NCBI RefSeq assembly: GCF_001624705.1
Contig: NZ_JSEO01000003.1
Coordinates: 62,001 to 126,000, forward strand
DNA: 64,000 nt
Origin: Marinomonas sp. SBI8L
GTDB lineage: Bacteria; Pseudomonadota; Gammaproteobacteria; Pseudomonadales; Marinomonadaceae
Direction of reading: 5' to 3'
Shown: positions 5,031-61,052 of the stretch, piece after piece
How the letters are laid out: each line of letters starts with the position of its first letter
Numbering within the stretch: position 1 is the stretch's first letter
Made by a program: the position numbers and the translations under genes
The notes under the pieces: generated by a model
The model's database searches: none
Seen by the model: only the letters and a program-made list of their open reading frames with translations
What the model was told of the DNA's origin: nothing

Positions 5031-5152
5031 GGTTTTTATATTTCTGGCTAAATTTCATCATATTCTAAAGCGATCACCTTATTGGTTGAATCTTTATTTT
5101 GAAAAAATAACAGAAGATGACCAATATTACATAAAAGCCTTTGCTGAGTGTA

Positions 5153-5167
5153 TTTGTGATCACGAAA
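5153..5167. promoter_or_regulatory. Operator candidate upstream of puuA-type gene
   Basis: TTTGTGATCACGAAA has one mismatch to the perfect palindrome at 4159-4174. It lies 84 bp upstream of the ATG at 5251 and 123 bp from the gntR start, so one protein could control both divergent genes. Confidence 0.6.
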
Positions 5168-5250
5168 GTAGTAGTGTGAATTATAACATTACAAAATGAC
5201 ATAAATTTGCGCACTCATGCTGCGACAAAGATTATTAGAGAGAATCTAAA

Positions 5251-6588: not shown

Positions 6589-6648
6589 AAAATACCCTAA
6601 TTAGCCATTTATCCGATTTAACTCATTGAAATACAATGGCTTTTCAAA

Positions 6649-6666
6649 ATACCCTTAAAGGGGTAT
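6649..6666. promoter_or_regulatory. ATACCC-N6-GGGTAT dyad upstream of potF-type gene
   Basis: Inverted repeat ATACCC/GGGTAT with a 6-base spacer (TTAAAG), in the 297-bp gap between the puuA-type and potF-type genes. A very similar dyad (ATATACC-N6-GGTATAT, spacer CAGAAA) lies upstream of the second puuB-type gene at 32771-32790. This is a possible shared operator. The rest of the gap is AT-rich with no gene. Confidence 0.4.
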
Positions 6667-6885
6667 ATAGATACAGATAGGGCTGGCGTAAATTTAATAC
6701 TGCAGATGAAGAGTGTTAAAGAAGAGAGGCAATAAAGTTTCTCTTCTTATAAAAAAATAAAAAAAATCGATGTTTTGATGAGCTAAATATGAAAGGAGAA
6801 GCCTGAGCCTTTCTTGGCCTCATTGTTGCTTTTAAATCATCATATAAATTGCGTAGCTAAGGCTACACTAATTGGAGAAATTAAC

Positions 6886-7983: not shown

Positions 7984-7985
7984 AT

Positions 7986-8021
7986 AAAAATAAGGGAGGC
8001 GAAATTGCCTCCCTTATTTTT
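7986..8021 (+). terminator. Rho-independent terminator after potF-type gene
   Basis: AATAAGGGAGGC - GAAATT - GCCTCCCTTATT followed by TTTCC: a 12-bp stem with a T run, 3 bases after the stop codon. Transport permease genes follow 200 bp downstream. Confidence 0.9.
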
Positions 8022-8219
8022 CCTAAACTTTGAGATAACTGATTGTCTTAAAAATAAAATATTTGCTAGTTTTAAATTGAGCCACTAGCTAAGTGTTCTC
8101 CTAACTGAATATTTAGTTAGCGATTCAGTAAATAGCTACCTATCTTCGACAAGTCTTGTTCAGGCTTGATGGGGGCTGTTAGAGCCATTTTATATAATAA
8201 TTTTAATCGAGGGTTTGCC

Positions 8220-9380
8220 ATGTCTTTCTCTGAGCAGATTGTGCCCAGTCCAACGTCAGCTGAACAGTTACCACTTTGGAAACAAGAAGGTGCTGAGCCA
8301 TTTTTACGGATAGAAAATGTCACCAAAAACTTTGGTGAATTTAAGGCGGTGGATAATATTTCGCTGGATATCTATAAAAAAGAGCTTTTCTGTTTATTAG
8401 GCGGCTCAGGCTCTGGCAAGAGTACTTTATTGCGCATGTTGGCAGGCTTCGAAACGCCAACCAGTGGCCGTATTCTGATTGATGGTGTGGACATGGCGGG
8501 CATTCAACCATGGGAGCGTCCCGTCAATATGATGTTCCAATCCTATGCATTATTTCCTCACCTCTCAGTGGCTGACAATGTGGCTTTTGGTCTTAAGCGT
8601 GAAGGTGTTGCAAAAGCGGAAATTAAAAAACGTGTGGCTGAGATGCTAGACATGGTTCAACTTGGCCATCTAGGTAAGCGTAAACCGCATCAGCTATCGG
8701 GTGGTCAAAGGCAGCGTGTCGCACTGGCTCGTGCTTTGATAAAGCGTCCTAAGCTTTTGTTGCTGGATGAGCCGCTAGGTGCCTTAGATAAAAAACTAAG
8801 AGAAGAGACTCAGTTTGAGTTAATCAATATTCAAGAAGAGTTAGGTGTCACCTTTGTGGTGGTAACCCATGACCAAGAAGAGGCCATGACACTTGCGACC
8901 CGCATTGGGGTTATGAATCAGGGCATCATAGTGCAGACAGATGAGCCACATGATGTGTATGAGTATCCTAACAGTAAGTTTGTGGCGGACTTTATCGGCT
9001 CGGTCAACATGTTTGAAGGTAAGGTGATTCAAGACGAGCCAGATAGTGTACAGATAGATTCAAAAGAAGCGGGTACGACCTTATTTGTGAATCACGGTAT
9101 TAGCTGCTCGCCTGATCAAGTTGTCAATGTGGCTATTCGTCCTGAAAAGATTCGAATTTCTAAGAAAGAGCCTGAAAAAGGTGTTAACTGCATACAAGGT
9201 ATCATAGAAGAAATCGCTTATATGGGCAGTCTTTCTGTCTTTAGAGTGCGATTAGCATCAGGTAAAGAGGTCAGAGTGACTCAGCCTAACTTCACTCGAA
9301 GCATGGGTGACAGATTTACTTGGAATGATGCTGTCTTTTTACACTGGGATGAAGATAGCAGCGTGGTACTTACATCATGA
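8220..9380 (+). CDS. potG: Polyamine ABC transporter ATP-binding protein (PotA/PotG type)
   Basis: 386 residues from the ATG at 8220 (AGGG six bases upstream); an in-frame ATG at 8166 lacks a ribosome binding site. Walker A GGSGSGKST at 61-69, Q-loop in MMFQSYALFPH, signature LSGGQRQRVALARAL, Walker B LLLLDEPLGALD and H-loop VVVTHDQEEA are all intact. A C-terminal TOBE/OB domain (from about 290) is typical of the PotA/MalK branch. Overlaps the next permease by 4 bp (ATGA). Energises the importer with the two permeases below. Confidence 0.93.
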   Translation: MSFSEQIVPSPTSAEQLPLWKQEGAEPFLRIENVTKNFGEFKAVDNISLDIYKKELFCLLGGSGSGKSTLLRMLAGFETPTSGRILIDGVDMAGIQPWERPVNMMFQSYALFPHLSVADNVAFGLKREGVAKAEIKKRVAEMLDMVQLGHLGKRKPHQLSGGQRQRVALARALIKRPKLLLLDEPLGALDKKLREETQFELINIQEELGVTFVVVTHDQEEAMTLATRIGVMNQGIIVQTDEPHDVYEYPNSKFVADFIGSVNMFEGKVIQDEPDSVQIDSKEAGTTLFVNHGISCSPDQVVNVAIRPEKIRISKKEPEKGVNCIQGIIEEIAYMGSLSVFRVRLASGKEVRVTQPNFTRSMGDRFTWNDAVFLHWDEDSSVVLTS

Positions 9381-44690: not shown

Positions 44691-45371
44691 TTACATGTGG
44701 TTTAAACCAAAATTCTCCAAGAGAGAAATCAACATTCGACCGCTTTTTTCCCTGTGCTGGTGATGAATTAAGCGAGCTGTTTCAGCGTTATTGGATTCAA
44801 TCGCATTAATAACATCCAAATGGTCTTTATTTGAACTATTTGGTTTAGGACGCATTTTCAAGGTTAGCATTCTTACTCTGTGAGATTGCTCAATAAAGTT
44901 GCTAACCAATTTTTGTAAACGCTGATTATCGGAAAACTCAACTAGATAACGATGGAAACGTTCATCAGCAGCAGCCCATTGAATTAAATCATCTTGTTGT
45001 AATGCTTCATCCATTGCAGTTACGGATTCACGCATAAGCGAAAGCTGATCATTGTTGAGACCATTAGTCGCACATAACGCCGCAGCTGTGGACTCTAAAC
45101 CCGTTAAAATCTCATAAATTTCTTTCATGTCTTCAATCGAAACAGGTTTTACTCTCATACCGTGTCGTGGTTTAAGTTCAATTAACCCTTCACGTGCCAA
45201 TTGCAGCATGGCTTCTCTTGTTGGCGTTCTGCTCATTTCTAATAGTGTTGAGACTTCTTGCTCAGTCATATGACTGCCAGTATGAAGTTCGTTATCGAGA
45301 ATCTTTCTTTTAAGTTCTCGATAGGCTTTATTAGCTAATGGCTCTTTCGGCTTGGTTTGTTTTTTATTCAT
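44691..45371 (-). CDS. GntR family regulator, FCD subfamily
   Basis: 226 residues. Winged helix-turn-helix at about 15-75 (GSHMTEQEVSTLLEMSRTPT core). FCD domain at 85-215 with the metal-site residues in AADERFHRYLVEF and MRPKPNSSNKDHLDV. It is the last gene of a four-gene leftward operon (lactonase, IPMDH-like, Gfo/Idh/MocA, gntR). The 26-bp palindrome at 48607-48632 with a GTATAC centre is its probable operator, giving autoregulation and control of the divergent transporter/kinase arm. Confidence 0.88.
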   Translation of the reverse strand: MNKKQTKPKEPLANKAYRELKRKILDNELHTGSHMTEQEVSTLLEMSRTPTREAMLQLAREGLIELKPRHGMRVKPVSIEDMKEIYEILTGLESTAAALCATNGLNNDQLSLMRESVTAMDEALQQDDLIQWAAADERFHRYLVEFSDNQRLQKLVSNFIEQSHRVRMLTLKMRPKPNSSNKDHLDVINAIESNNAETARLIHHQHREKSGRMLISLLENFGLNHM

Positions 45372-45390
45372 TCTATATACTTTTTGGAGT

Positions 45391-46425
45391 CTATTTCTTG
45401 AATTTTCTTTGCGTATTTGACTCGGCAGATTGATATATCAAGTCTTCAACAGTTAGGTTATTCATGTAGCTTTCAACAGGATTAGCTAATTCTGTTTGAT
45501 ACAAAATATGATTGACAACATGTTGCTGTAAATTAAATACACAATCGCCGCCAAAATTGTCCGTAGAAAAGCTGTATTCATGTGATTGCCAATTGACCTC
45601 CCCATGTAAACGAGTGTTAATTTTACCATCCCCGTTTAATATTAGAGAAGCATTACTGCCTTCTATTTGCATTTCCCCCATGGTTAATCGCGTATTTTGA
45701 GCACTATGGTCAGCTAACCGGTTTCCATCAAATATGGCTCTAATATCATGATTAAATTGGAATAGGACAATGCCAGCATCCTCACCTTTAATATCAGGGT
45801 TTAATTGCTGTAAATCCGCATAAATAGACTCGACTTCACCTAATAGGTAACGAAAAACGTCAATCCAATGAATCCCAGTTTCATGAATCAAAAAGCGTTT
45901 CATTTCTCTAAAGTAAGGCTGCCTTGCTAGATAAGCGTTTTTGCCTTGGCCATCACCAGGCCTTAGTCTAAAGGTCACATTGTAAACTTTGCCTAACTGG
46001 TTGTTGTCTAATAACATTTTGATTTCTTGATACCAAGGCTGAAAACGAAAGTTTTCATGAATGATCACTTTGCCATTATGCTGTTTAATCACATGGGCTA
46101 ATGATTCAGCTTCTTTTAAAGAAGGTGTAAAAGGCTTTTGGCAAATACAAGGTATGCCACGTTCTACTGCCGCTTTTACAAATTCAGCATGGGTTTCTGG
46201 TGGAGTAATAATATCAACTAGATCTGGTTTAGTTTCATCCAGCATAGTGATGAAGTTGGTATAGGTTGATTTGATATTATATTTAAGGGCAATATCTGAA
46301 GCGGTTGTGGCGTTACGACTGCATAACGCCACTAATTCAGCTTCTTCAATTCGAGCCCAAGCATCATAATGAAACTGGCTAAAATAACCTGTTCCTACTG
46401 TCGCTACTCGAAGTGTTTTTGGCAC
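45391..46425 (-). CDS. Gfo/Idh/MocA family oxidoreductase
   Basis: 344 residues. N-terminal NAD(P) domain VATVGTGYFSQFHYDAW. The usual EKP catalytic-region motif reads CQKPFTPSL, and the active-site helix is LIHETGIHWIDVFRYL with the catalytic His. The family oxidises sugars, inositols and sugar acids (also D-apiose). It lies 15 bp after the IPMDH-like gene and 19 bp before gntR, clearly in one operon with the lactonase. In this pathway it probably carries out a hydroxyl oxidation on a sugar or sugar acid; the exact position is unknown. Confidence 0.88.
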   Translation of the reverse strand: MPKTLRVATVGTGYFSQFHYDAWARIEEAELVALCSRNATTASDIALKYNIKSTYTNFITMLDETKPDLVDIITPPETHAEFVKAAVERGIPCICQKPFTPSLKEAESLAHVIKQHNGKVIIHENFRFQPWYQEIKMLLDNNQLGKVYNVTFRLRPGDGQGKNAYLARQPYFREMKRFLIHETGIHWIDVFRYLLGEVESIYADLQQLNPDIKGEDAGIVLFQFNHDIRAIFDGNRLADHSAQNTRLTMGEMQIEGSNASLILNGDGKINTRLHGEVNWQSHEYSFSTDNFGGDCVFNLQQHVVNHILYQTELANPVESYMNNLTVEDLIYQSAESNTQRKFKK

Positions 46426-46440
46426 AATAATTCCTGCTAA

Positions 46441-47538
46441 TTAATTTTTTAGTTGATTAATAACAGCCGAGGTAATGGCTTCAGTCCCTGCTGTTCCACC
46501 AAGCTCAAAAGGAGTAAGCTGACCGCCGGCAAAGGCGTTATCTACAGCATCTCGAATGAGGTTGGCTGCTTGGGATAAACTGGCCATATGGTGATTCTGC
46601 CCTAACCAATCTAACATCATGGCAGCAGATAAAAACATAGCGGTAGGGTTAGCTTTTCCTTCACCAACAATATCTGGCGCACTCCCATGACAAGGTTGGA
46701 AAACAGCATGATCATCTCCTATATCTGCTGATGGAGCCATCCCCATGCCACCCATTAACGCTGCCCCTAAGTCAGAGAGAATGTCACCGAACATGTTTTC
46801 TGTGACTAATACGTCAAAATGCCAAGGGTGTCTGACAAGATTTAATGCCATTGCATCGACATAACAATGATCTGCAATGATAGATGGTGCAAGTTTTGAC
46901 TGCTCATCGAAGACTTTACGGAAGAAAGCAAATGACTGAAAAACGTTAGCTTTATCCACGCAGGTTACTTTGCCTTCGCTACCATTCTCTTTACGGTGAG
47001 AGGCCAATTTAAAAGCAAAATCAAATAATCGTTCTGATACTGAACGAGTAATTACCATGGTATCTTTTGCAATTGCGTCGTTTTCAACAGTGCCTTTACC
47101 ATGAGAAGCAAATAACCCCTCAGTTGATTCGCGAATTAAAACAAGATCAATATCTTTAGCTTTTTCACTTGCTAAAGGGAGGTCTAAACCAGGTACTAAT
47201 CGAACAGGTCTTACTCCAGCATACAAACCTAGTTCCATGCGAAGGTCGATTTGAGGAGATACCTCGGTACCATCTTCATAACGAACAGAAGGTAACCCCA
47301 TGCAGGATAACAATATGGCATCAGCGTCTTTGGCAATACGCTTAGATTCATCGGGAAAAGAGGTTCCTGTGTCTCTATATAATGCTGCACCTGCAGGAAC
47401 ATCAATAAAATTAAGTTCAACACTACCAGTTTTCTGGCAGGCAAGCTTTAGTATTTCTAAACAAGGCGGTGTAATTTCTGGCCCAATACCATCACCTGCA
47501 AAAACTGCGATATCAAATGTCTTACGAGACTCATTCAT
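46441..47538 (-). CDS. Isocitrate/isopropylmalate dehydrogenase family, tartrate-dehydrogenase-like
   Basis: 365 residues. Beta-decarboxylating dehydrogenase fold. Substrate/metal motifs are RESTEGLFASHGKG near residue 138, CVDKANVFQSF (Lys) and VTENMFGDILSDLGAALMGG (Mg-binding Asp). C-terminal CHGSAPDIVGEGKANP is the cofactor loop. Family members use malate-type hydroxy acids (isopropylmalate, isocitrate, tartrate). No leuC or leuD is nearby, so leucine biosynthesis is unlikely and a catabolic hydroxy-diacid is expected. The start overlaps the lactonase stop by 4 bp (ATGA). Confidence 0.87.
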   Translation of the reverse strand: MNESRKTFDIAVFAGDGIGPEITPPCLEILKLACQKTGSVELNFIDVPAGAALYRDTGTSFPDESKRIAKDADAILLSCMGLPSVRYEDGTEVSPQIDLRMELGLYAGVRPVRLVPGLDLPLASEKAKDIDLVLIRESTEGLFASHGKGTVENDAIAKDTMVITRSVSERLFDFAFKLASHRKENGSEGKVTCVDKANVFQSFAFFRKVFDEQSKLAPSIIADHCYVDAMALNLVRHPWHFDVLVTENMFGDILSDLGAALMGGMGMAPSADIGDDHAVFQPCHGSAPDIVGEGKANPTAMFLSAAMMLDWLGQNHHMASLSQAANLIRDAVDNAFAGGQLTPFELGGTAGTEAITSAVINQLKN

Positions 47539-48536
47539 TTTTTATTCTCCGGTTGAACTAAGGTTTTATTTGGCCCATTAAAGAGCCAATGGCTAGGTGC
47601 GAGACCTGTATGGTTTTGCTTGAACTTTGAAATTTGATGACCTAATAGACAACCTAAAAAGATCGTATTTCGATCTGGACCACCAAAAGCTAAACTAGAA
47701 ATATTCTTTAATTTTTGACTTTTCACTTGGTCTAAATGAGGGCGGCCCATTGAATGAGATAAAAAAGCAGTTTCAACCCAATCCAAATGGTCTTTATCTA
47801 CATCAATTAACTGTGTGGCTTGTTCTTTGCCGTCAGGTGCTACGCGGATAATCTGGTTACTCACTATGCTAGTTACCCAAAAATAGCCTGCAGCATCTTT
47901 AACTAAACCATCAGGAAAGACACCTTTATCAAAGTGAGTTAGGGTGACCTTATTGCTTAAGTCCCCTTTTTCACTAATATCGAAACGGCTCAAACGACGG
48001 GAAAAAGTCTCGTTAACATATAAGAAATTGCCATCTTCACTCACAAGACATTCGTTGGTATAACCAAGATTGTCAGCAACAATACGTGCCTCACCTTTGT
48101 CATAAAGAATGATAAAACCGTCTTGGACGTCAGAGCGATAAGCCGCTGCACGAGGAATAGTTTTGGTACTGACTGTTATCCAAATTCTGCCTTGATAATC
48201 TAAATGCACAAAGTTAGTAGGGGGAATTCTTTTATTATCTAGATGAGTTAAAAATGCTTGGGCTGTGCCATCTGGAAATAATTGATAAACGCCACCTTCT
48301 TCCTCTCCTAAGTGAGCGATTAAAAAGCTGCCATCTTCTAATAAACAAATGCCATTAGGTTTAAGTCTAAAGTCTAAGTTATTCGCCAAGATCGAATATT
48401 GCTGACCATCACTTTCAATGACGGTTACACCACCGTCCCAGTTTGAACAATAAGTCCGTTCATTTGATGTCGTTAATACACATTCGGGTCTCTGTAATTG
48501 TGAGCCAATGCTGCTGATACTATCTAAGCTATACAT
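47535..48536 (-). CDS. SMP-30/gluconolactonase family protein
   Basis: 333 residues, six-bladed beta-propeller type. Blades show repeating DG(S/T)FLI and PDGLVKDAAGYFWV blocks, with Glu/Asn/Asp metal-ligand positions in NECLVSEDGNFLYVNET and KPNGICLLEDGSFLIAH. The family opens sugar lactones. No signal peptide, so cytoplasmic. First gene of the leftward operon; ATG with AAGGAT upstream. A lactone intermediate in this pathway is implied, fed perhaps by the Gfo/Idh/MocA enzyme. Confidence 0.85.
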   Translation of the reverse strand: MYSLDSISSIGSQLQRPECVLTTSNERTYCSNWDGGVTVIESDGQQYSILANNLDFRLKPNGICLLEDGSFLIAHLGEEEGGVYQLFPDGTAQAFLTHLDNKRIPPTNFVHLDYQGRIWITVSTKTIPRAAAYRSDVQDGFIILYDKGEARIVADNLGYTNECLVSEDGNFLYVNETFSRRLSRFDISEKGDLSNKVTLTHFDKGVFPDGLVKDAAGYFWVTSIVSNQIIRVAPDGKEQATQLIDVDKDHLDWVETAFLSHSMGRPHLDQVKSQKLKNISSLAFGGPDRNTIFLGCLLGHQISKFKQNHTGLAPSHWLFNGPNKTLVQPENKK

Positions 48537-48606
48537 AAGTCATCCTTAGCTAGGTCTTTATGAATGTTTTTACAATAGCTAGGTTTATATTTCATTGCAA
48601 TAATTA

Positions 48607-48632
48607 ATTTATTAACGTATACATTAATAAAT
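48607..48632. promoter_or_regulatory. 26-bp palindrome in the divergent promoter of the acid-sugar cluster
   Basis: ATTTATTAA - CGTATACA - TTAATAAAT, perfect 9-bp arms around a GTATAC core, between the lactonase start (48536) and the TctC start (48694). TTAACGTATACATTAA-like sites are typical for FCD-GntR proteins, and the operon encodes one. Confidence 0.72.
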
Positions 48633-48693
48633 CTATTCGATAGAGTAGATGTCTCAAGAGTGAAAATAAAAACAAAATTTTTGGAGTGACAAA

Positions 48694-49722
48694 ATGAAGA
48701 AGGCTATTGCTACGTTAGTTTCTAGCGTTTTAATTACATGTGTTTGTGCAAACGTGACAGCAAAGGATCGCTATCCTGAAAGAGATATTACCAATGTCGT
48801 TGTTTGGTCTGCTGGCGGTGGTACAGATGTCATTAATAGAATGATAACGTCTGAAATGTCGCCTCATCTTGATGTCAATATCAACGTGACGAATCGACCT
48901 GGTGGTGTGGCTGGTTCTTTGGGGATGAGTTACGTACATAAGTTAAAACCGGATGGTTATACCTTGGTTGGATTATCCGAATCAGTTGTTGCTTCTGCTG
49001 TCCAAGGGGGATGGAAACAGCGAATGGATGTATGGCATCCTTTTATAGTAGGTGGTTCGCCTGATCTTATTTCAGTTTCTTCTAATTCAAAGTTCAATAC
49101 CTTAGAAGATGTCATTAATGCTGTAAAAGCTAACCCAAAATCGGTAAAGGCAAGTGCTGGTGGAGCGGGCTCTATTCACCATCTTAATTTGTTGGCGCTC
49201 GCAAACGGTACCGAAGTTGAGTTTAATTATATTCCTTACCCTGGATCGGCCCCGGCGCAAACAGCAGTACTTACTGGTGAAGTTGATTTAGTTATTACTT
49301 CATTGGCAGAGCAACAACAGCTAATAAAAGGCGGACAGTTAAAGCCGCTTGCTATGCTAGTTGCTAATGCTCAAACCTTAGAGGGAGTAGATACTATTCC
49401 TTCTGCTTTTGACTCCTTCCCACAGCTGCAAAAGCATCTACCTATCATGCAAGCTATTGGCTTTGCGATAAAAAGTGATGCACCAGATTCGGTTAAAAAT
49501 AAGTTAACCATGGCTTTTCAAAAAGCCATAGCAAGTGAAAAACTGCGTACATGGGCTAAAGATAATTACTATGTTTTATCTGGGTTGTCAGGTCAATCTG
49601 CCAGCAATGAATTTGCTTTTTTAGAGTCACTGTTTTCTTGGACTCTTCAAGATTTAGGGGCAACCAAAATAAGCCCAAAAGCTTTGGGTATTCCAAAGCC
49701 TGCTGATCTTCAAATGAACTAG
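48694..49722 (+). CDS. tctC: Tripartite tricarboxylate transporter binding protein (TctC type)
   Basis: 342 residues. Signal peptide about 1-23 (cleavage near VTA|KDRYP). The mature protein has VVVWSAGGGTDVINRMI, the carboxylate-binding loop of TTT binding proteins, followed by VTNRPGGVAGSLGM. GGAG before the ATG. First gene of the rightward operon; an intrinsic terminator follows, presumably raising its dose over TctB/A. It delivers an organic-acid substrate to the membrane unit. Confidence 0.92.
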   Translation: MKKAIATLVSSVLITCVCANVTAKDRYPERDITNVVVWSAGGGTDVINRMITSEMSPHLDVNINVTNRPGGVAGSLGMSYVHKLKPDGYTLVGLSESVVASAVQGGWKQRMDVWHPFIVGGSPDLISVSSNSKFNTLEDVINAVKANPKSVKASAGGAGSIHHLNLLALANGTEVEFNYIPYPGSAPAQTAVLTGEVDLVITSLAEQQQLIKGGQLKPLAMLVANAQTLEGVDTIPSAFDSFPQLQKHLPIMQAIGFAIKSDAPDSVKNKLTMAFQKAIASEKLRTWAKDNYYVLSGLSGQSASNEFAFLESLFSWTLQDLGATKISPKALGIPKPADLQMN

Positions 49723-49735
49723 ATATTACTCTGTG

Positions 49736-49767
49736 AAAAGGTGGCCATCTTATAGGCCACCTTTTTG
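49736..49767 (+). terminator. Intrinsic terminator/attenuator between tctC and tctB
   Basis: AAAAGGTGGCC - ATCTTATA - GGCCACCTTTTTG: 11-bp stem plus T run, 14 bp after the tctC stop. The remaining genes of the operon are downstream. Confidence 0.9.
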
Positions 49768-49798
49768 TTAATTATAGATTTACCCTTTTGGGGGATGT

Positions 49799-50545
49799 AT
49801 GCAACCTGAACAACTTATAGTGTTACGACGTGCTGATATCAAAGCAGCCATTGTCATCATTATAGTGTCACTGTTAATGATTTTTGAAAGTGCTTCGTTT
49901 CCACTTACAGACAGTTATGCGGGAATTCAAAATGCCTGGTATGTTTCGCCAGCTTTGTTTCCTATATTAATTGCGAGCATATTATTGATTTGTGGCGTGA
50001 CCTTATTATTTAAAGGATTAGCGTTCGTTAGGGCTCATAAGGAAATTCCTGTTGTTAGAGCTAGCCAAGCAAGTCGCTGGCGTTTTGTACTACTGGTTTC
50101 ATTAATTTCTGGCATGGTTTTTAGCTGGGTTCCATTGATAGACTTTGCGATTTCTTCTTTTACTTTCTTATTTTTATTTATTCTGGCGTTTTATTCAGAT
50201 AGCCCTGCCTTACAGCATAAGGTGCTGACCATTTGGACTTCAGTGTCATTAATTTTATTGGTGCTGTATCAAACTAGTGCTTTAAGTGAGGGAGGTAGAA
50301 ACCTATTAGATTGGGGGGCTTTGTTATTTGCAGCCTTAATGGTTGGTTTTTTTAGGCAGTGGGCTATTAATTTAGATTGTTTTACTAAATGGAAAACCAG
50401 TGTCAAAACAGCTCTCATCGTTACTTTAGTAGTTTGTCCTATCTTTCGGTTAGGTATGCTAGTCCCACTTCCTACAGAAGGCATAGTGATTGAAAAAATG
50501 GTGGATGCTAAATATCTAATAAGAGATATGTGGAGGGGGAATTAA
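49799..50545 (+). CDS. tctB: Tripartite tricarboxylate transporter small membrane subunit (TctB type)
   Basis: 248 residues with about five to six transmembrane helices, longer than minimal TctB because of an extra C-terminal segment (about 190-248). N-terminal ADIKAAIVIIIVSLLMIFE is the first helix, and ALFPILIASILLICGVTLLF the second, both conserved in TctB. Stop and next start share bases (TAATG). Confidence 0.88.
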   Translation: MQPEQLIVLRRADIKAAIVIIIVSLLMIFESASFPLTDSYAGIQNAWYVSPALFPILIASILLICGVTLLFKGLAFVRAHKEIPVVRASQASRWRFVLLVSLISGMVFSWVPLIDFAISSFTFLFLFILAFYSDSPALQHKVLTIWTSVSLILLVLYQTSALSEGGRNLLDWGALLFAALMVGFFRQWAINLDCFTKWKTSVKTALIVTLVVCPIFRLGMLVPLPTEGIVIEKMVDAKYLIRDMWRGN

Positions 50546-52074
50546 TGGATATTCTGTCATCATTTTATGTCTTTGGCGGCACACTGGCATCTTTACTCTC
50601 GTCTCCTATTAATATCTTAATTCTAGTCGGAGCGTCTTTTTTCGGTATTATTTTTGGGGCATTACCCGGATTAACAGCAACGTTAGGTGTGGCACTATTA
50701 ACAACCTTAACTTATGGAATGGACGTTAATACTGCTCTGATTGCATTGCTTGGGTTATATGTAGGCGCAATTTATGGTGGTTCTTACCCATCAATATTAA
50801 TTAATATTCCAGGCACGGCCGCGGCTGCGGCCACAGCTTTGGATGGATATCCACTAGCGTGTAAAGGGCAGGGGGGAAGAGCTTTAGGCCTCACCACGAC
50901 AGCTTCTTTAATTGGCACTCTGATGGGAATTCTTGTATTGGTAATGGCTGCGCCTTGGGTTGCCAAAATGGCGTTACAATTTACCTCATTTGAGTTCTTC
51001 TTACTGGCTCTATTTGGTATTTTAATCAGTGGTACTCTCACCAGTTCTGATTTAGTAATAAAAGGCTGGATAGCGGGTCTTATTGGTTTAGCGATTGCGA
51101 CGATTGGTCGAGATCCTCTGCAGTTCTTTCCTCGTTTTACATTTGATTTACCAGACCTAGATCAAGGTTTAGAAGTTGTGCCTGTGTTGATTGGTGCATT
51201 TGGTATTCCTCAAGTTATCAATGCTTTAAGGAATAAAGAGAGCTTAGGCGCTATGCAGGACTTCGGACGCATAATGCCAGAGTGGTCCACACTCTTTAAA
51301 AATCGCAAAAACATTACGCGTTCATCCATGATAGGGATAGGTATTGGTGCGGTTCCTGGTATTGGTGAAGATATTGCTGGGTGGGTATCTTATGGTGCGG
51401 CAAAAAATACCTCCAAACATCCTGAAACCTTTGGTTCTGGAGAGCCAGAGGGGATTATTGCATCTGAAACCGCTAATAATGCCTGTATTGGAGGTGCGTT
51501 AATACCTTTACTCACCTTGGGTATCCCAGGAAGTCCGCCTGCGGCTATGTTATTAGGTGCATTGATGCTACACGGCATTACGCCTGGTCCTATGATAGTG
51601 GTACAAGATCCAGGCTTTCTAATTGAAGTGACGGCTATTTTGGTTTTATGTTCAGTTGCCATGTGGTTTAACGGCATGTTTTTAGCCAAACAAGTGGTAA
51701 AAGTGTTAAGCATACCTGCCCCCATCTTTCTACCTGTTGTTACTTTGATGTGTGTACTGGGTTCGTATGCACTGGGACTGAATGTATTTAACTTATACAT
51801 GATGGTTCTGATTGGTGTAGTTGCTTATTTCTTAGCTCAAATGCAGTACCCCATTTCACCACTAGTTATCGGTGTCATTTTAGGGCCTATGGCTGATGAA
51901 AATTTGAGAAGAGCATTGATGGTTTCTGAAGGTAGTCTATTGCCTTTTATTGAGCGTCCTGTCTCCATTCTTTTACTGCTTGTCATCGCATTAATCCTTA
52001 TCAGTAAAACCCCTTTAAATCAAAAACTGAAAGATCTTTTCTTTCATAGCTTTAAACGATTGAAATCGAAATAA
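50545..52074 (+). CDS. tctA: Tripartite tricarboxylate transporter large membrane subunit (TctA type)
   Basis: 509 residues from the ATG at 50545 (GGAGGGGG upstream, and the ATG overlaps the TctB stop); a GTG at 50530 lies in TctB. About ten to twelve helices. Family motifs FGALPGLTATLGVALL near residue 30, GGSYPSILINIPGTAAAAA near 80, and TLGIPGSPPAAMLLGALMLH near 330, the duplicated TctA half-repeat loops. Confidence 0.93.
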   Translation: MDILSSFYVFGGTLASLLSSPINILILVGASFFGIIFGALPGLTATLGVALLTTLTYGMDVNTALIALLGLYVGAIYGGSYPSILINIPGTAAAAATALDGYPLACKGQGGRALGLTTTASLIGTLMGILVLVMAAPWVAKMALQFTSFEFFLLALFGILISGTLTSSDLVIKGWIAGLIGLAIATIGRDPLQFFPRFTFDLPDLDQGLEVVPVLIGAFGIPQVINALRNKESLGAMQDFGRIMPEWSTLFKNRKNITRSSMIGIGIGAVPGIGEDIAGWVSYGAAKNTSKHPETFGSGEPEGIIASETANNACIGGALIPLLTLGIPGSPPAAMLLGALMLHGITPGPMIVVQDPGFLIEVTAILVLCSVAMWFNGMFLAKQVVKVLSIPAPIFLPVVTLMCVLGSYALGLNVFNLYMMVLIGVVAYFLAQMQYPISPLVIGVILGPMADENLRRALMVSEGSLLPFIERPVSILLLLVIALILISKTPLNQKLKDLFFHSFKRLKSK

Positions 52075-52086
52075 GAGGAGAGTGTA

Positions 52087-53364
52087 GTGAGTGTATTGTT
52101 AGGCTGTATCGCAGATGACTTTACTGGTGCAACGGATATTGCATCGGTATTAAAACGAGAAGGTATGCGGGTTTTACAAATTAATGGTAACCCAGCTGAT
52201 CAAGGTGTCGTACCTAAAAATGTAGATGCTGTCGTGATTGCTCTCAAATCAAGAACTCAGCCAGTAAATAGTGCTGTTTCTGATTCTCTTGCTGCGTGTA
52301 ACTGGTTATTGGAACAGGGTGTTCTACAAGTGTTCTTTAAGTATTGCTCGACTTTTGATTCGACAAAGGAAGGTAATATAGGGCCAGTTATTGATGCGTT
52401 GTTAACACGATTAAAGACAACTCAAACTATTGTTTGCCCTAGTTATCCAATTAATGGCCGTACCGTGTATGCGAGTAACTTGTTTGTTCATGGGGTACCT
52501 CTTGCTGAATCTGCAATGAAAGATCACCCGCTGACACCTATGACTGATTCAAATTTGATCCGTTTATTAGAAGGACAGACAAAACAAGCTATAAAGCCGA
52601 TCAGCTGGCAGCAAGTTCAATCTGGTGTGACCGCATTAGCTAAAGAATTTGAAAACTCAAAAGCGGGAATCTATGTAGTAGATGCATTAGTCGATGAAGA
52701 TTTGGTGACAATTGCTCATGCTGCCAAGGACATGACGCTATTAACCGGTGGTGCTGCATTAGCGCAAGGTCTGCCGAGTTTATATCGTAAACTTAAGTGG
52801 ATGGAAGCTCAGCCTGAAACAAATAGCCTTAAATTTTCTCAAGGACATACCTTAATCTTGGCCGGTAGCTGTTCAACAGCCACACGTTCGCAAATAGAGT
52901 ACTTTTTAGCCTCATATTCAGGTATTGCTATTGATGCTATTGCTTTGTCCCATGGTGGTGAAGAGCAGCAGCGGCTTGAGAGTTTTATTCAGACCAACGC
53001 TGGTGCAGATCCCATTTTAGTTTACGCCAGTGATACCCCTGAGAATATCGCTAAGGTGCAAGCCAAGCTAGGTGTGGAAGTGGCTGGAAAGCTAGTAGAA
53101 GACTGCATGGCTCAATTAGCAATCAAAAGTGTTTCTGAATATGGCGTCAACAATATTATTGTGGCGGGTGGTGAAACATCTGGTGCTGTTGTCTCTGCTC
53201 TTGGAACCCCTGCATTAGTTATCGGTGATGAGATCGAGCCGGGTGTGCCATGGACTTTTTTAGAAGGCGAGAAAAACATCGCTCTTGCGTTAAAGTCAGG
53301 TAATTTTGGTTCTCAAGCTTTTTTTGTAAATGCCTTTGATATGACTTGTAAAGGGGGATGTTAA
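52087..53364 (+). CDS. otnK: Four-carbon acid sugar kinase (OtnK / DUF1537 type)
   Basis: 425 residues. N-terminal substrate-domain motif CIADDFTGATDIASVL (residues about 6-21), C-terminal ATP domain with LAGSCSTATRSQIEYF, VAGGETSGAVVSALG and EIEPGVPW, as in 3-oxo-tetronate 4-kinases. GTG start with GAGGAG upstream. It lies 12 bp after tctA and is followed without a gap by the class II aldolase. It should phosphorylate a C4 (or related) oxo acid sugar at the terminal carbon. Confidence 0.88.
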   Translation: MSVLLGCIADDFTGATDIASVLKREGMRVLQINGNPADQGVVPKNVDAVVIALKSRTQPVNSAVSDSLAACNWLLEQGVLQVFFKYCSTFDSTKEGNIGPVIDALLTRLKTTQTIVCPSYPINGRTVYASNLFVHGVPLAESAMKDHPLTPMTDSNLIRLLEGQTKQAIKPISWQQVQSGVTALAKEFENSKAGIYVVDALVDEDLVTIAHAAKDMTLLTGGAALAQGLPSLYRKLKWMEAQPETNSLKFSQGHTLILAGSCSTATRSQIEYFLASYSGIAIDAIALSHGGEEQQRLESFIQTNAGADPILVYASDTPENIAKVQAKLGVEVAGKLVEDCMAQLAIKSVSEYGVNNIIVAGGETSGAVVSALGTPALVIGDEIEPGVPWTFLEGEKNIALALKSGNFGSQAFFVNAFDMTCKGGC

Positions 53365-54042
53365 ATGAAATGGCTTTCAGAGCGAAAAAACTTAATTGAA
53401 TCCGTGCTTAAAATGAATAATTTAGGCATAAATCAAGGAGCGTCTGGTAATGCCAGTATTCGGGTTGAAGATGGCTTTCTTATTACTCCTTCTGGGGTGG
53501 TTTATGAAGATCTTGAGCCTGAGGATATTGTCTTTGTAGATACACAAGGAGCTAGTCACCCTGACAAAATAAACCGTAAACCATCAAGTGAGTGGCGTTT
53601 TCATTTGGATATTCTCAATGCCCGGGATGATCTCAATGCTATCGTGCATACTCATGGTAAATCAGTTGCGACTTTAGCTTGTCTTAGAAAAGAGATCCCC
53701 CCGTTTCATTACATGATTGCCCTCGCAGGGGGAAACACGATTCGTTGTGCTGAATACGAAACCTTTGCGACTCAATCATTATCCAGTGCAGCTTTAATCG
53801 CCTTGGAAGGGAGAAAAGCATGTCTACTTGCTAACCATGGACAAATTGCCTGTGGAACTAGTTTAAAACAAGCCTTAGCCATTGCTCTAGAAGTGGAGAC
53901 ACTTGCGGATATCTACCTTAGAGTTTTAGCATCGGGACAATCCCCTTTTTTACTTACCGATGAGCAAATGCAAGAAGTACATGCACGTTTTTCAAAAGGC
54001 TATGGTACTGCCGGAAGCCTACAGAATGAGAGAAGAGGTTAA
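53365..54042 (+). CDS. otnC: Class II aldolase/decarboxylase (OtnC type)
   Basis: 225 residues. Class II aldolase/adducin fold. Zinc ligands are His in AIVHTHGKSVATLA (about residue 95) and in LLANHGQIACG (about 158). QGASGNASIRV and PSGVVYEDLEPEDIVF are the N-terminal family blocks. OtnC decarboxylates 3-oxo-tetronate 4-phosphate to DHAP. The ATG immediately follows the kinase stop. Paired kinase and decarboxylase make this step nearly certain in type, though not in exact substrate. Confidence 0.88.
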   Translation: MKWLSERKNLIESVLKMNNLGINQGASGNASIRVEDGFLITPSGVVYEDLEPEDIVFVDTQGASHPDKINRKPSSEWRFHLDILNARDDLNAIVHTHGKSVATLACLRKEIPPFHYMIALAGGNTIRCAEYETFATQSLSSAALIALEGRKACLLANHGQIACGTSLKQALAIALEVETLADIYLRVLASGQSPFLLTDEQMQEVHARFSKGYGTAGSLQNERRG

Positions 54043-54044
54043 TT

Positions 54045-54335
54045 ATGTTTGTTGTGACTGTTAAATTTACGATTAAGGCGATTAATCAAGACAGGTTTCA
54101 AACCTTAGTATTACAGCAAGCGAGTAACAGCTTAATAAATGAAGCTGAATGTCATGTATTTGAAGTCTCAAAACAGGCCCAACAAAATAGTGATGTAACC
54201 TTCTTTTTATATGAAGTTTATGAAAGGAAAAAGAGCTTTGAATTGCATTTAGAAAGTCAGCATTTTTTGACTTTTAATGAGATAACCGCTGACCTTGTAT
54301 TGGCCAAATCAGTAGAAGTGTTTGAGACCTGTTGA
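54045..54335 (+). CDS. Small ABM-fold (antibiotic biosynthesis monooxygenase-like/YgiN) protein
   Basis: 96 residues, dimeric alpha-beta ferredoxin-like fold by pattern: FVVTVKFTIKAINQDRFQTL, then CHVFEVSK, FFLYEVYERKKSFELHLES and FTLKF-like HFLTFNEI. ABM proteins are heme- or cofactor-free oxygenases or ligand-binding dimers. It starts 2 bp after otnC with AGAGAGG-type spacing. In acid-sugar operons its place is usually taken by an isomerase such as OtnI, so it may serve here in a non-homologous way. Function uncertain. Confidence 0.75.
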   Translation: MFVVTVKFTIKAINQDRFQTLVLQQASNSLINEAECHVFEVSKQAQQNSDVTFFLYEVYERKKSFELHLESQHFLTFNEITADLVLAKSVEVFETC

Positions 54336-57095: not shown

Positions 57096-57785
57096 TTAAT
57101 GGCCTAGAACCAGCTTAGCAACACAGGTCTGAATGGCATCTAATTGGCTAGAAAGGTCGGTATTCGCTGCTGGAAAAAGGCCATCTAATGCAGCCGTACC
57201 TATGGTAAAGCCTGCGGCATTTGCTTCATAGGCTGCAATTATTCGTTCAGGTCCTGCGATAGACCCTGCTACTATCACAGGTTTATTGATGGCACTTGTT
57301 ACCGCAGCCATGAGCTCTGGTACGGATTCACTTGAACGATAAGCTAATAAGTCGAGCCCATGTACACCCTCATGTTGAGTGAGTGAAATAGCGCTTTTAA
57401 CTATGTCTTCTATGCTACCCATAAGATTACTTGGGTGGCCTTCGATTCTCCCTGGGAAAGGGTAATATTGAATATTGCTATCTTTGAGTAGAGGTAGAAC
57501 ATGCTCAACGCTTGTGCCCCCTAAAAGGTAATCCACCCCTATCTCGACGGCAGCTTTAGCGGATGCAATTTCGCTATCTGTATCAAGGGAAACAACTTCA
57601 ATATAGCTTGTAGCACCGCCAGTTTTTATGAGTAGATTGAGCTCTTTAAGGTCTTTAATGGGCAGACCAATATCTTTAAACCCTATGTGCTTTATTCCAG
57701 AGTTAAGGACAGTTTTTAAGTGTTGTTTGGCGTCAGCCACAGTGCGGTCATTACGGGTAAGCATAAAGATAAAGTTATAAGACAT
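57096..57785 (-). CDS. Putative TIM-barrel protein with HisA-like phosphate-binding end
   Basis: 229 residues. I do not recognise a named family. Strand-loop blocks include FMLTRNDRTVADAKQHL, GIKHIGFKDIGLP and YIEVVSLDTDSE. The C-terminal pair KPVIVAGSIAGPERI and AGFTIGTAALDG resembles the phosphate-binding loops of HisA/TrpF-type barrels, so the substrate is probably phosphorylated. The start overlaps the pdxA2-type stop by 11 bp, tying it to the acid-sugar pathway, maybe acting on the triose phosphate or its precursor. Inference from context. Confidence 0.65.
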   Translation of the reverse strand: MSYNFIFMLTRNDRTVADAKQHLKTVLNSGIKHIGFKDIGLPIKDLKELNLLIKTGGATSYIEVVSLDTDSEIASAKAAVEIGVDYLLGGTSVEHVLPLLKDSNIQYYPFPGRIEGHPSNLMGSIEDIVKSAISLTQHEGVHGLDLLAYRSSESVPELMAAVTSAINKPVIVAGSIAGPERIIAAYEANAAGFTIGTAALDGLFPAANTDLSSQLDAIQTCVAKLVLGH

Positions 57786-58788
57786 GGTTGGCCCCTTGGT
57801 TTTTACAATTGATGAGTTGTGTTGCGTAGCTAATGGCTGTTTCTAAACTTGAGTGATCTGCAATACCTTTACCTGCAATATCAAATGCCGTGCCATGATC
57901 TGGGCTTGTACGTATGAAGGTTAGTCCCAGAGTGATATTAACCCCAGTTTCTATGCCCATATATTTCACTGGGATCAGACCTTGGTCATGATATTGTGCG
58001 ACGACAATGTCGAATTTTCCTTGTCTTGCCTGCATGAAAATCGTGTCCCCCGGCCAAGGGCCACTGACTAGATACCCTTTTTCTTGAGACGCTTTAATGG
58101 CTGGTTGGATAATCTCGATTTCTTCTCGACCAAATAGGCCGCCTTCTCCCGCGTGGGGGTTGAGGCCTGCAACGGCAATACGAGGCTGCTGAACCCCCAA
58201 GGCCTTCGCCCCTTGTTGGGCAAGTTCTATCGCTTGTATTTGACCATCAAAATTAATCCTGTCTAATACCTCTCTCATGGAGCAATGAATACTGACTAAT
58301 ACCGTGCGTAACTCTTGATTTGCAAGCATCATGGCGACTTTGTCAGAGTCACAATAATGGGCGAGGATTTCCGTATGGCCTGGGTATTGGATACCCGCTA
58401 AACTAAAGGATTCTTTATGAATAGGAGCGGTGACAAGTGCCGATACCTTATCCGCTTTTGCTAACTCAATTGCTGTGACTATGGCGTCAAAAGCGGCTTT
58501 ACCGTTATTTGCATTGATTTCACCCACCTTGGGTAATTGGGTGAAGTGCGAGCTCGCGATTAGATTAATGGTATGAGCGCTAAAATTTGCCTCTTCAGGG
58601 CTTTTTATCTCATGGATCGACCAATTTACCGATACCTGTTGGATTGCCTCTTGCATCACAAGAGGATCTCCTATCACCACACATTGAGTCGTAAACGTGG
58701 GAGCAGTGAGTGTTTTAGCGATGATTTCAGGCCCTATTCCGGCTGGGTCTCCCATTGTTATGGCAATGGGGGCTTTAACATCTTGCAT
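57775..58788 (-). CDS. pdxA2: 4-phosphoerythronate/D-threonate 4-phosphate dehydrogenase (PdxA2 type)
   Basis: 337 residues. PdxA fold: N-terminal ITMGDPAGIGPEIIAKTL, SALVTAPIHKESFSLAG, zinc-ligand His regions GHTEILAHY and HYDQGLIP, and GLTFIRTSPDHGTAFDIAG. The clustering with a DUF1537 kinase and no other PLP-synthesis gene marks it as PdxA2, which turns D-threonate 4-phosphate into DHAP and CO2, rather than vitamin B6 PdxA. GAGG seven bases before the ATG. Part of a three-gene leftward operon. Confidence 0.85.
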   Translation of the reverse strand: MQDVKAPIAITMGDPAGIGPEIIAKTLTAPTFTTQCVVIGDPLVMQEAIQQVSVNWSIHEIKSPEEANFSAHTINLIASSHFTQLPKVGEINANNGKAAFDAIVTAIELAKADKVSALVTAPIHKESFSLAGIQYPGHTEILAHYCDSDKVAMMLANQELRTVLVSIHCSMREVLDRINFDGQIQAIELAQQGAKALGVQQPRIAVAGLNPHAGEGGLFGREEIEIIQPAIKASQEKGYLVSGPWPGDTIFMQARQGKFDIVVAQYHDQGLIPVKYMGIETGVNITLGLTFIRTSPDHGTAFDIAGKGIADHSSLETAISYATQLINCKNQGANHVL

Positions 58789-58797
58789 AGAAATACC

Positions 58798-60030
58798 TCA
58801 GTCGTGAGTGGTGAGAAGTGAATGAGCGGCTTGGTAAAGTACGTTCGGTCCACCAAAGCCACCTGCTTTCATGGCTAACGCTAAAGGCGTGCCTGTTTCA
58901 TCTATGGCTTTTGCGAGGGGAAAGCCCGCCTCAAATTCACCTATAAGTTGAAATGACTTAATCGAAAGTGTGCTGAGTATGGCGTTCATCGTCTCCCCAC
59001 CAGTTGCGATCAGAGCATCAAATTTCTGTTTATGAATGGCGTCTTGCGCTTCTGATGTGAGGTTTTTGAGGGCAGTTTTTGCATCATTTTTGAGTGATGG
59101 CGGTACTGTTAAACAAGCAATTTGAGCATCTTTATTATCATGCTTAAAAAGCGCCTTGGCACTAAATACCACTGGAACGCCTTTGCTCTTTAAATACTTA
59201 CATTGGGCTTGGCTAACAGGATTAGCACTGCCTATTACAATTAAGCATTTTTTTGCATTAACTTGGGGCAGGGCTTGTAAAAGAGGTTCCTTGTTAGAGT
59301 GAGAATAAGTTCTAGCTGTTTTATCTAGGGTATTAGCCAGTGCTTGCGCAAGACCGGGTGAGCCTATCCAAAGTACCTTGTGTCTATTGGGGATAAGCGC
59401 AACTTGTTGGTTTAGCTCAGTTTGGGTTTTAGCATCTAGAATCAGCGTAAGCTGCTGTCTAGCGGCTCTTGTTATGTCTTCTTGGCTTGCCCCTGTCGAT
59501 ATGATCGTCGCTTGACCTAAAGAAGGTGCAATCAAGTCTTTAATTGAGCTGGTTCTGGCTGGATGCACAGGGTCATTAGCGTATTGGCTGGTTGAAACAC
59601 TTTTGCCTTGCACAAACTGAATGCCATTGTGTGTGGTTCGTCCTGCATCAGGAAAGGCGGGAGCGATGACAATATTGTGAAACCTATCTTTTTCAGCCGA
59701 TTGATAAAGGGCCTCTAATTCAGCTCGAATATGACCTCTTAATGTGGAATCTATTGTTTTATAGATAATCTGCTGGCTAGAAAATGTGTGGATAGCTTGC
59801 TGAACACGTTTGATAGCGGCTTGTTCACTAACTTGTCTGCTGCCTGTATCAAGTGCAATGAGCTGGGTTTTTATTTCGCTTTGTTGTGTTGCTTCTAGTT
59901 CAAAAAAGTCTTGGCGAAGAACAAGGGAAGAGAGCCCTTTTGCTAAAAAGGGGGCGGCACCATCTGCGGCACTGGTTAGGTCGTCTGCTATGATGGCAAT
60001 ATTGGCTGAAGTCGCATTTAAGTTTTTCAT
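58798..60030 (-). CDS. dtnK: Four-carbon acid sugar kinase (DtnK / DUF1537 type)
   Basis: 410 residues. N-terminal IIADDLTSAADGAAPFLAKG is the DtnK variant of the DUF1537 substrate motif (DLTSAAD rather than DFTGATD as in the other kinase here). The middle has IDSTLRGHIRAELEAL and the C-terminal ATP part LIVIGSANPVSQAQCKYL, IATGGETMNAILSTL and EAGFPLA. With PdxA2 next door, D-threonate 4-kinase activity is likely. Start ATG at 60030, 57 bp from the palindrome at 60087. Confidence 0.85.
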   Translation of the reverse strand: MKNLNATSANIAIIADDLTSAADGAAPFLAKGLSSLVLRQDFFELEATQQSEIKTQLIALDTGSRQVSEQAAIKRVQQAIHTFSSQQIIYKTIDSTLRGHIRAELEALYQSAEKDRFHNIVIAPAFPDAGRTTHNGIQFVQGKSVSTSQYANDPVHPARTSSIKDLIAPSLGQATIISTGASQEDITRAARQQLTLILDAKTQTELNQQVALIPNRHKVLWIGSPGLAQALANTLDKTARTYSHSNKEPLLQALPQVNAKKCLIVIGSANPVSQAQCKYLKSKGVPVVFSAKALFKHDNKDAQIACLTVPPSLKNDAKTALKNLTSEAQDAIHKQKFDALIATGGETMNAILSTLSIKSFQLIGEFEAGFPLAKAIDETGTPLALAMKAGGFGGPNVLYQAAHSLLTTHD

Positions 60031-60105: not shown

Positions 60106-60173
60106 TTTTGTAATCTGCTTGTTATGCTTTATATGGCAATATGTAGGCTTAATCTGAGAGTTTGAGAGGAATT

Positions 60174-61052
60174 ATGCAGCGGGTAAAAACACCATCTTTT
60201 AATGACCTAAGAGCATTTGAAGCGGTAGCAAGGCTGGGTACAGTTCGTGCTGCAGCCGGTGAAATTGCTGTCACCCATGGGGCAGTGAGTCGACGAATTC
60301 GAAACCTTGCTGATTATATTGAGGTTCAGCTATTTGAATCTGAAGGACGTGGTATTCGCTTAACTTCTCAGGGTGAAGTCTTGGCTGGGGCTGTGACTGA
60401 TGCTTTTGAGTTAATCCAAGAGGCGTTAGCTGAGATACAAGCACCTGAGCAAGCAGGCCCCATTCTTCTATCCTGTGAAAGGTCAGTGGCGATGCGTTGG
60501 TTAATGCCAAGGTTGAGTAACTTTCAAACTCAGTACCCTGAAGCGGATTTACATTTATCCGTGGGTGGAGGTGAACTGGATTTCAGCAAAGATAAGGCCA
60601 GCATCGCGTTGCGTCGATTAGATTTTGCCATTGATCCTCATTATCAAGTCGATGTTTTAATGCTTGAAAAAATGGGGCCAGTGATGACGCCAAGTATGCT
60701 TGAGGCGTTTGAAAGCGGTGACTATATTGGCCTTGGTTCTAAAACTCGCCCAGAAGCATGGAGAGATTGGTTAGTTAAACATCCAGATGTGCCAAAGCCA
60801 AAAGAGGTGCGCTATTTTGATCACCATTTTTTCATGGTTGAAGGGGCGGCAAGTGGTCTGGGAGTGGCGTTATGTCCTAAGGTAATCGCCTTTGACTATG
60901 TGCAAGATGGCCGTTTAATCGATCTTTATGGTTTTAAAGAAGATGGCACTGAATATGGTCTTATTTATCCTAAGTCGATGAAAATGAATGAATTTACCTT
61001 AGCGTTAAAGTCTTGGTTGAGTCAGATTGCGGCGGAAATAGACAAGCTCTAA
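60174..61052 (+). CDS. LysR family regulator (GcvA-like)
   Basis: 292 residues from the ATG at 60174 (AGAGGA four to five bases upstream); a TTG at 60162 is less likely. Helix-turn-helix GTVRAAAGEIAVTHGAVSRR at about 20-45. Effector domain with GPILLSCERSVAMRWLMPRL. Divergent from dtnK-pdxA2, so it probably controls that operon. The GcvA-like branch often senses small metabolites. Confidence 0.9.
   Translation: MQRVKTPSFNDLRAFEAVARLGTVRAAAGEIAVTHGAVSRRIRNLADYIEVQLFESEGRGIRLTSQGEVLAGAVTDAFELIQEALAEIQAPEQAGPILLSCERSVAMRWLMPRLSNFQTQYPEADLHLSVGGGELDFSKDKASIALRRLDFAIDPHYQVDVLMLEKMGPVMTPSMLEAFESGDYIGLGSKTRPEAWRDWLVKHPDVPKPKEVRYFDHHFFMVEGAASGLGVALCPKVIAFDYVQDGRLIDLYGFKEDGTEYGLIYPKSMKMNEFTLALKSWLSQIAAEIDKL

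Follow-up and report, generated by a model that had tools for sequence, protein, structure and literature searches.

A divergent gene cluster of Marinomonas sp. SBI8L as a possible alternative entry to the tetronate pathway

The subject here is a gene cluster at positions 44691..54335 of a 64,000-nucleotide stretch of DNA from Marinomonas sp. SBI8L (the window; contig NZ_JSEO01000003.1, positions 62,001 to 126,000, forward strand), in which a kinase of the OtnK type is accompanied by an unusual set of upstream enzymes. With a likelihood that we put a little short of even, this cluster provides another way into the four-carbon acid-sugar (tetronate) pathway, proceeding via a Gfo/Idh/MocA dehydrogenase (Gfo), an SMP-30 family protein, an isopropylmalate dehydrogenase-like (IPMDH-like) enzyme in which a phenylalanine takes the place of the family's tyrosine, a small ABM-fold protein and OtnK. 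In the route envisaged, a tetrose or tetronolactone would be oxidised by the Gfo enzyme and the lactone opened by the SMP-30 protein, and (2R)-tetronate, whether made in the pathway or brought in by the importer TctCBA, would become 2-oxo-tetronate, with its CO2 kept, through oxidation by the Phe-type IPMDH-like enzyme, a job of the LtnD/DenD type. The ABM protein would shift the carbonyl to give 3-oxo-tetronate, OtnI's job elsewhere, OtnK would phosphorylate it, and the last enzyme, in the window a FucA-like aldolase in place of OtnC, would release CO2 and dihydroxyacetone phosphate (DHAP).

The cluster offers a concrete set of candidate genes, complete in Proteobacteria and present in part in a Rhodothermales and an Opitutaceae genome. 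Its Tyr-to-Phe change predicts changed chemistry within a textbook enzyme family, and a small ABM-fold protein receives a proposed function. The available part of PMC12780249 describes tetrose catabolism as unresolved, and searches of an open-licence subset of the literature showed no route for tetronate, hamamelose or apiose that uses an IPMDH-like enzyme.

The kinase and the intermediate it implies

The kinase (52087..53364, + strand) passes the model for 3-oxo-tetronate kinase, OtnK (NF043035; 526 bits, cut-off 350), has the SBD_N and NBD_C domains of DUF1537 kinases in Pfam, and retains 49 of the 51 columns that are invariant across 32 other OtnK rows, a reference set that excludes L064 and G023; the kinase of genome G023 retains 48. 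The gene that follows OtnK passes the model for the decarboxylase OtnC in all three relatives tested outside Marinomonas (293, 306 and, in the rhizobial locus L034, 314 bits; cut-off 250), and three other Marinomonas likewise have OtnK followed by OtnC over the cut-off. In a tree of 35 kinases and one of 32 aldolases, the window being in both, OtnK and OtnC from such clusters interleave with their canonical counterparts. For example, E. coli YgbL pairs in the aldolase tree with the cluster OtnC of G037 (support 98/99), and the OtnC of Rhizobium WL3 joins those of two rhizobial clusters and of L134 (100/98). Since in relatives the same front end adjoins, or shares a genome with, canonical OtnK and OtnC, it would deliver 3-oxo-tetronate, and from these sequence relationships the shared intermediate is most likely that canonical four-carbon keto acid. 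An earlier note, made from the letters of this DNA, had proposed that a different substrate enters here. This is probably half right, in that the entry may differ while the usual 3-oxo-tetronate seems to be reached.

Phenylalanine for tyrosine in the IPMDH-like dehydrogenase

The IPMDH-like protein (46441..47538, − strand; Iso_dh, 288 bits), a putative tetronate dehydrogenase, falls below cut-off for all NCBIfam models. Profile alignment places its Phe143 at Tyr139 of solved IPMDHs, with a specificity loop three residues shorter; Gln96 is a further distinction. Phe occupies this position in the window protein and in 87 of the 90 aligned rows (one genome being present twice), the other three rows, relatives at ~47% identity or less, having Tyr. 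The catalytic Lys, the metal Asp residues and three Arg are kept in all 90 rows, except for one Asp (89/90; lost in L040), and we take them to have the roles of catalysis, metal binding and substrate binding that they have in the IPMDH fold. A quick IPMDH tree groups 85 rows in a single clade (SH-aLRT 96). Tyr139, which presumably assists decarboxylation in the IPMDH family, is kept in LeuB of 24 congeners, in the L223 tartrate dehydrogenase and in the IPMDH-like protein of L135, and the Tyr-to-Phe change, as a feature of the alignment, suggests oxidation without decarboxylation. The earlier note considered decarboxylation by this enzyme possible; that is made less likely by the Phe that all of the clade has at the Tyr139 position, but with the three substrate-binding Arg kept it may still occur.

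Recurrence in other genomes

When genome contigs were scanned with the alignment of IPMDH-like proteins, at least 581 relatives came up, the best 80 of which were kept. The same genes recur around these 80, with lactonase and importer types exchangeable. At distances of up to 9 kb from the IPMDH-like gene, home-made profiles detect Gfo in 36, GntR in 35, ABM in 24, SMP-30 in 23, OtnC in 21, OtnK in 20 and an MBL-fold (metallo-beta-lactamase) protein in 11, all of which are lower bounds with many contigs ending nearby. Given that its genes co-occur in many genomes, the cluster is not a chance grouping. Among the 20 loci with OtnK, an MBL-fold protein is present in nine, SMP-30 in eight (two of which carry an additional Amidohydro_2 protein) and neither in three. 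The importers vary between TctCBA, TRAP, ABC, a sodium symporter and, judged by eye, an MFS protein. Among the taxa represented are Marinomonas, roseobacters, Hoeflea, Pelagibius, Paraglaciecola and Woeseiaceae, with partial sets in Rhodothermales (L066, without Gfo and ABM) and Opitutaceae (L072, without OtnK).

Plasmid versions illustrate the exchange of parts. A Sulfitobacter set combines a TRAP importer with an MBL-fold protein of the acyl-homoserine lactone (AHL)-lactonase kind, a Marinovum set has TctCBA and no local kinase, and a rhizobial set comprises an ABC importer, an epimerase-family oxidoreductase, an aldehyde dehydrogenase, OtnK and OtnC. The Ruegeria MBL-fold homologue matches lactonase models, none over cut-off. 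When compared with solved structures, the Sulfitobacter TRAP binding protein has many matches whose names allow no ligand inference, and the rhizobial CUT2 binding protein has distant matches only. The public labels isopropylmalate dehydrogenase family, monooxygenase and AHL lactonase family are probably misleading for members of these sets. In the rhizobial loci L034:8389-15564 and L035:8386-15548, a haloacid-dehalogenase-type gene and the aldehyde dehydrogenase lie between ABM and OtnK. At L100:14728-17434 the cluster is followed by a gene of the 3-keto-disaccharide hydrolase family (Pfam) and, by eye, a ThuA-like gene, flanking genes that hint at a glycoside source.

The ABM protein and OtnI

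The ABM-fold protein (54045..54335, + strand; Pfam ABM) may replace OtnI. Its predicted structure has a pLDDT (predicted local distance difference test) score of 97, and E33, C36, Y56, E57, Y59, H68, H73 and K88 are invariant across 23 rows. Among 50 OtnK loci, 25 have ABM only, ten OtnI only, 15 neither and none both, counts that are limited by locus ends and by most loci having been collected via the IPMDH-like gene (home-made profile above 400 bits; four duplicates dropped, L039 under the threshold, the window not counted). ABM tracks mainly the IPMDH-like gene and OtnI tracks LtnD/DenD; because each goes with different dehydrogenase genes, part of the exclusion reflects the type of operon. 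In G052, G076 and G092 ABM adjoins OtnK though the front end is on another contig. In 50 genomes, 28 of which are ABM-positive (at least 100 bits), OtnI is not found at E <= 1e-40 or 1e-5 in eight of the 28, seven of these having OtnK; nor is it found at these thresholds in G023 and G010. In OtnK genomes lacking an OtnI match, some other factor therefore does, or spares, the isomerase step.

The genome of the window strain and the wider link to OtnK

LtnD, DenD and OtnI are missing from the cluster, as noted previously, the ten proteins matching none of the three models. The earlier note would have been refuted by known feeders encoded elsewhere and co-regulated; for LtnD and OtnI, the two sought across the genome, no such refutation results. 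There the best LtnD match is at 185 bits, below the cut-off of 350, and OtnI is not matched at E <= 1e-5. The description of an acid-sugar cluster with an OtnK kinase, its LtnD and OtnI feeders absent from cluster and, by cut-off, from genome, is thus borne out. Two DUF1537 kinases are found in the genome, both inside the window.

Within the genus Marinomonas, OtnK is present in each of the six genomes that carry the Phe-type gene, compared with 16/49 overall (P 6e-4), and in a sample of the class the figures are 3/6, own genome included, against 14/369 (P 8e-4; neither P value is corrected for kinship). The six of the class sample include G113, which is of Tyr type, and G450, whose motif was not read. 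In 35 of the 46 genomes whose IPMDH-like locus has no OtnK, the kinase is on another stretch, with the proviso that many assemblies are fragmented and some OtnK may really be near. Fifteen of those OtnK loci were read, and both Bradyrhizobium ones contain LtnD, OtnI, OtnK and OtnC. On the quick IPMDH tree, linkage to OtnK in cis switches at least 8 times, contig ends inflating the apparent absences. In Marinomonas G043 the front end has neither kinase nor decarboxylase, and two otn loci lie elsewhere, the first being LtnD-OtnK-OtnC with an OtnI-like gene; the OtnI-like genes of this genome, at 263-265 bits, fall short of the cut-off of 325. The second G043 locus (contig 29, L227, ~4900-9150) has a broken ltnD, open reading frames (ORFs) for OtnK, OtnC and an OtnI-like protein and, upstream, an ORF that by eye is transposase-like.

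An unusual ending in the window strain

The gene after OtnK in the window (53365..54042, + strand; Pfam Aldolase_II), at OtnC's place in relatives, had been called an OtnC-type decarboxylase. That label does not hold, the protein scoring 83 bits against the cut-off of 250 of the OtnC model (NF043034) and having its best matches in models of L-fuculose-phosphate aldolase, PRK08087 (222 bits, cut-off 264) and TIGR01086 (213 bits, cut-off 400), themselves below cut-off. Against E. coli FucA it scores 192 bits, with the catalytic Glu, three His and two Tyr aligned, residues that we take to have their FucA roles, the His as zinc ligands. No OtnC over the cut-off of NF043034 was found in the strain's own genome. 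The kinases of the window and of G023 share a long branch (1.02) in the kinase tree, and G023 has an OtnC over cut-off (296 bits) on another contig, without adjoining OtnK. FucA chemistry also gives the enediolate of DHAP, and by analogy recruitment of a FucA-like aldolase as decarboxylase would be chemically reasonable.

Weighing the alternatives

A five-carbon acid, branched or penturonic, could enter instead, with the Gfo enzyme and the lactonase producing a dicarboxylate that the IPMDH-like enzyme oxidises and decarboxylates to a keto-tetronate for OtnK, a scheme close to that of the earlier note. The IPMDH-like enzyme keeps the three Arg and the metal ligands of its decarboxylating relatives, acid importers are common across the set, and the OtnK/OtnC argument holds equally; however, the clade-wide Phe, at a position where the proteins named above keep Tyr, tells against it, and no C5-specific enzyme was noticed by eye in 14 neighbourhoods, most of whose flanking families are not annotated. 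We regard it as unlikely. It may be that kinase and FucA-like aldolase in the window strain alone have turned to a longer phosphorylated ketose, the rest of the family making DHAP and CO2 from tetronate, and here the long kinase branch shared with G023, the lack of an OtnC over cut-off in the strain's genome and the absence from its aldolase of OtnC-specific residues are pertinent. As the sister kinase belongs to a genome, G023, that has OtnC elsewhere, and as the kinase-invariant columns are kept, this is improbable. More improbable still is a hamamelonate/2-carboxyarabinitol route, on which a branched hexonate, e.g. hamamelonate, undergoes oxidative decarboxylation to a 3-pentulose, which after phosphorylation and a carbonyl shift by ABM is split into DHAP and glycolaldehyde by the FucA-like enzyme. 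Family chemistry would then be kept by the window enzymes, including an aldolase in which the Glu, the three His and the two Tyr of FucA are aligned, and the rhizobial aldehyde dehydrogenase could oxidise the glycolaldehyde (a D-hamamelose pathway in Ochrobactrum is published, going by the accessible part of PMC8914248), but related clusters, the rhizobial ones included, end in OtnC over cut-off, and the kinase has nearly all OtnK-invariant columns.

Several observations sit uneasily with the tetronate entry that we prefer. On the chemical side, the three conserved Arg would fit a dicarboxylate better than tetronate, acid importers (TctCBA, TRAP) beside aldose oxidation are odd for a neutral tetrose, and tetroses are described as rare in nature in the available portion of PMC12780249, whose authors guess at a phosphorylating and not an oxidative route. 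The Phe-type enzyme is no plain substitute for LtnD/DenD because, by home-made profiles, LtnD and/or DenD coexist with its gene in several genomes (L063, L201-L203, L212), and L040 (44% identity) has the Phe yet falls outside the clade. Gfo is missing from the rhizobial version, as is any recognised lactonase, and 11 of the 46 genomes considered above show no OtnK. A clean exclusion of ABM and OtnI at genome level had to be rejected, OtnI over cut-off being present in 9/28 ABM-positive and 11/22 ABM-negative genomes; moreover the L066 locus has neither, its genome having no ABM and only weak OtnI matches. The window aldolase has Ser75 and Ala121 in place of a Lys and an Arg/Lys that are present in 31/31 OtnC rows. 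The full extension of the tetronate entry is somewhat unlikely. It would be a widespread, so far unknown oxidative tetrose pathway leading from aldotetrose via lactone, tetronate, 2-oxo- and 3-oxo-tetronate to DHAP, with a non-decarboxylating IPMDH-family member, the first ABM-fold sugar-acid isomerase and, in the window strain, a FucA-type decarboxylase.

Layout of the locus

All ten ORFs described earlier are found at their coordinates, mostly tightly spaced with some overlapping, and their Pfam families are confirmed, each above the gathering score. The arms diverge from a promoter region of 157 bases (48537-48693). Leftwards, on the − strand, the order is the SMP-30 family protein, a putative lactonase (47535..48536; Pfam SGL and Str_synth matches), the IPMDH-like dehydrogenase, the Gfo/Idh/MocA protein, a putative aldose or lactone-forming dehydrogenase (45391..46425; assigned by Pfam, predicted structure with pLDDT 94), and a GntR/FCD regulator (44691..45371; Pfam GntR and FCD above gathering) with 68-76% identity across five congeneric clusters. 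Rightwards, on the + strand, come the substrate-binding protein TctC (48694..49722), the small membrane subunit TctB (49799..50545) and the large membrane subunit TctA (50530..52074; 454 bits), each matched by the Pfam family of its name, and then the DUF1537 kinase, the class II aldolase and the ABM protein.

Inside the divergent promoter a palindrome, TTAACGTATACATTAA (48612..48627, no strand), is a candidate GntR operator, having the same position and near-identical sequence in six congeneric intergenic regions, the window included. With two mismatches allowed, such a pattern is not uncommon by chance across the window, and as stand-alone operator evidence it was dropped for being too frequent.

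Neighbouring and parallel loci

A second acid-sugar-type cluster, not in the earlier note, lies ~3 kb further on (57096-60030, − strand; regulator at 60162-61052, + strand). It comprises a DUF1537 kinase below cut-off for all NCBIfam models, a PdxA homologue whose 387 bits exceed the TIGR00557 cut-off, and a protein of 229 aa that lacks a Pfam match and is weakly similar to GGGP synthase and HisA. The trio recurs on the rhizobial plasmids L223 and L224, the third protein of L223 being within a gene annotated as cupin domain-containing. At L135:3831-7263 and L136:1-7900, an IPMDH-family gene, which in L135 is of Tyr type with 37% identity and in L136 is known from the gene end only, accompanies an amidohydrolase and OtnK; these loci are possibly a parallel, decarboxylating entry to the tetronate pathway. 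Another possible front end is that of a Paracoccus plasmid (L134:1058-7895), where OtnK-OtnC occurs together with an oxidoreductase of the DRL_cat/SAF kind, a TRAP importer and a gene carrying the annotation cyclase family, and where LtnD, DenD and OtnI are neither annotated nor matched within 13 kb.

Comparison with known systems

The four-step L-threonate/D-erythronate pathway comprises LtnD or DenD, OtnI, OtnK and OtnC, with DHAP as product (available parts of PMC12540250 and PMC10580937). Shared with it are OtnK in the cluster, OtnC in family members elsewhere and the expected DHAP. The differences are the lack of an OtnI match, and of an LtnD over cut-off, in cluster or genome, the presence of the IPMDH-like enzyme, ABM, Gfo and SMP-30, and, in the window, the FucA-like aldolase for OtnC. 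A three-step bypass (Guo et al. 2024), as far as the accessible text of PMC12540250 describes it, uses LtnD, 2-OtnK and a 2-OtnC with an F_bP_aldolase domain. Going by that text, the cluster resembles it in skipping OtnI and in having a last enzyme of a different aldolase fold, and differs from it in that this enzyme is Aldolase_II in the window, not F_bP_aldolase, and the kinase is by model of the 3-oxo type.

In the D-apiose route of the roseobacter-like strain LCG007, the steps given in the available part of PMC11747546 are apiose dehydrogenase, apionolactonase, apionate oxidoisomerase, 3-oxoisoapionate kinase and decarboxylase, and as there outlined the order of sugar oxidation, lactone opening, oxidation with isomerisation, phosphorylation and decarboxylation is the same. 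However, the cluster kinase is OtnK, not OiaK (111 bits against that model's cut-off of 700), so the apiose analogy drawn earlier does not extend to membership of that branch. A Rubisco-like protein, which the D-hamamelose/RLP pathway would call for and which the earlier note did not see either, is absent from the ten cluster proteins by Pfam.

With isopropylmalate, tartrate and D-malate dehydrogenases the IPMDH-like enzyme shares the fold and the catalytic Arg, Lys and Asp, and is set apart from them by Phe for Tyr139, a loop three residues shorter and Gln96. The ABM protein is, like LsrG, the ABM-fold isomerase of phospho-4,5-dihydroxy-2,3-pentanedione (P-DPD), small and of ABM fold, unlike it in scoring 22 bits against a cut-off of 135 (PRK10486), a weak match; the carbonyl-shift chemistry of LsrG is a model for its action. 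Neither the canonical threonate pathway nor a member of the apiose pathway, the cluster is akin to the acid-sugar pathways that employ a DUF1537 kinase.

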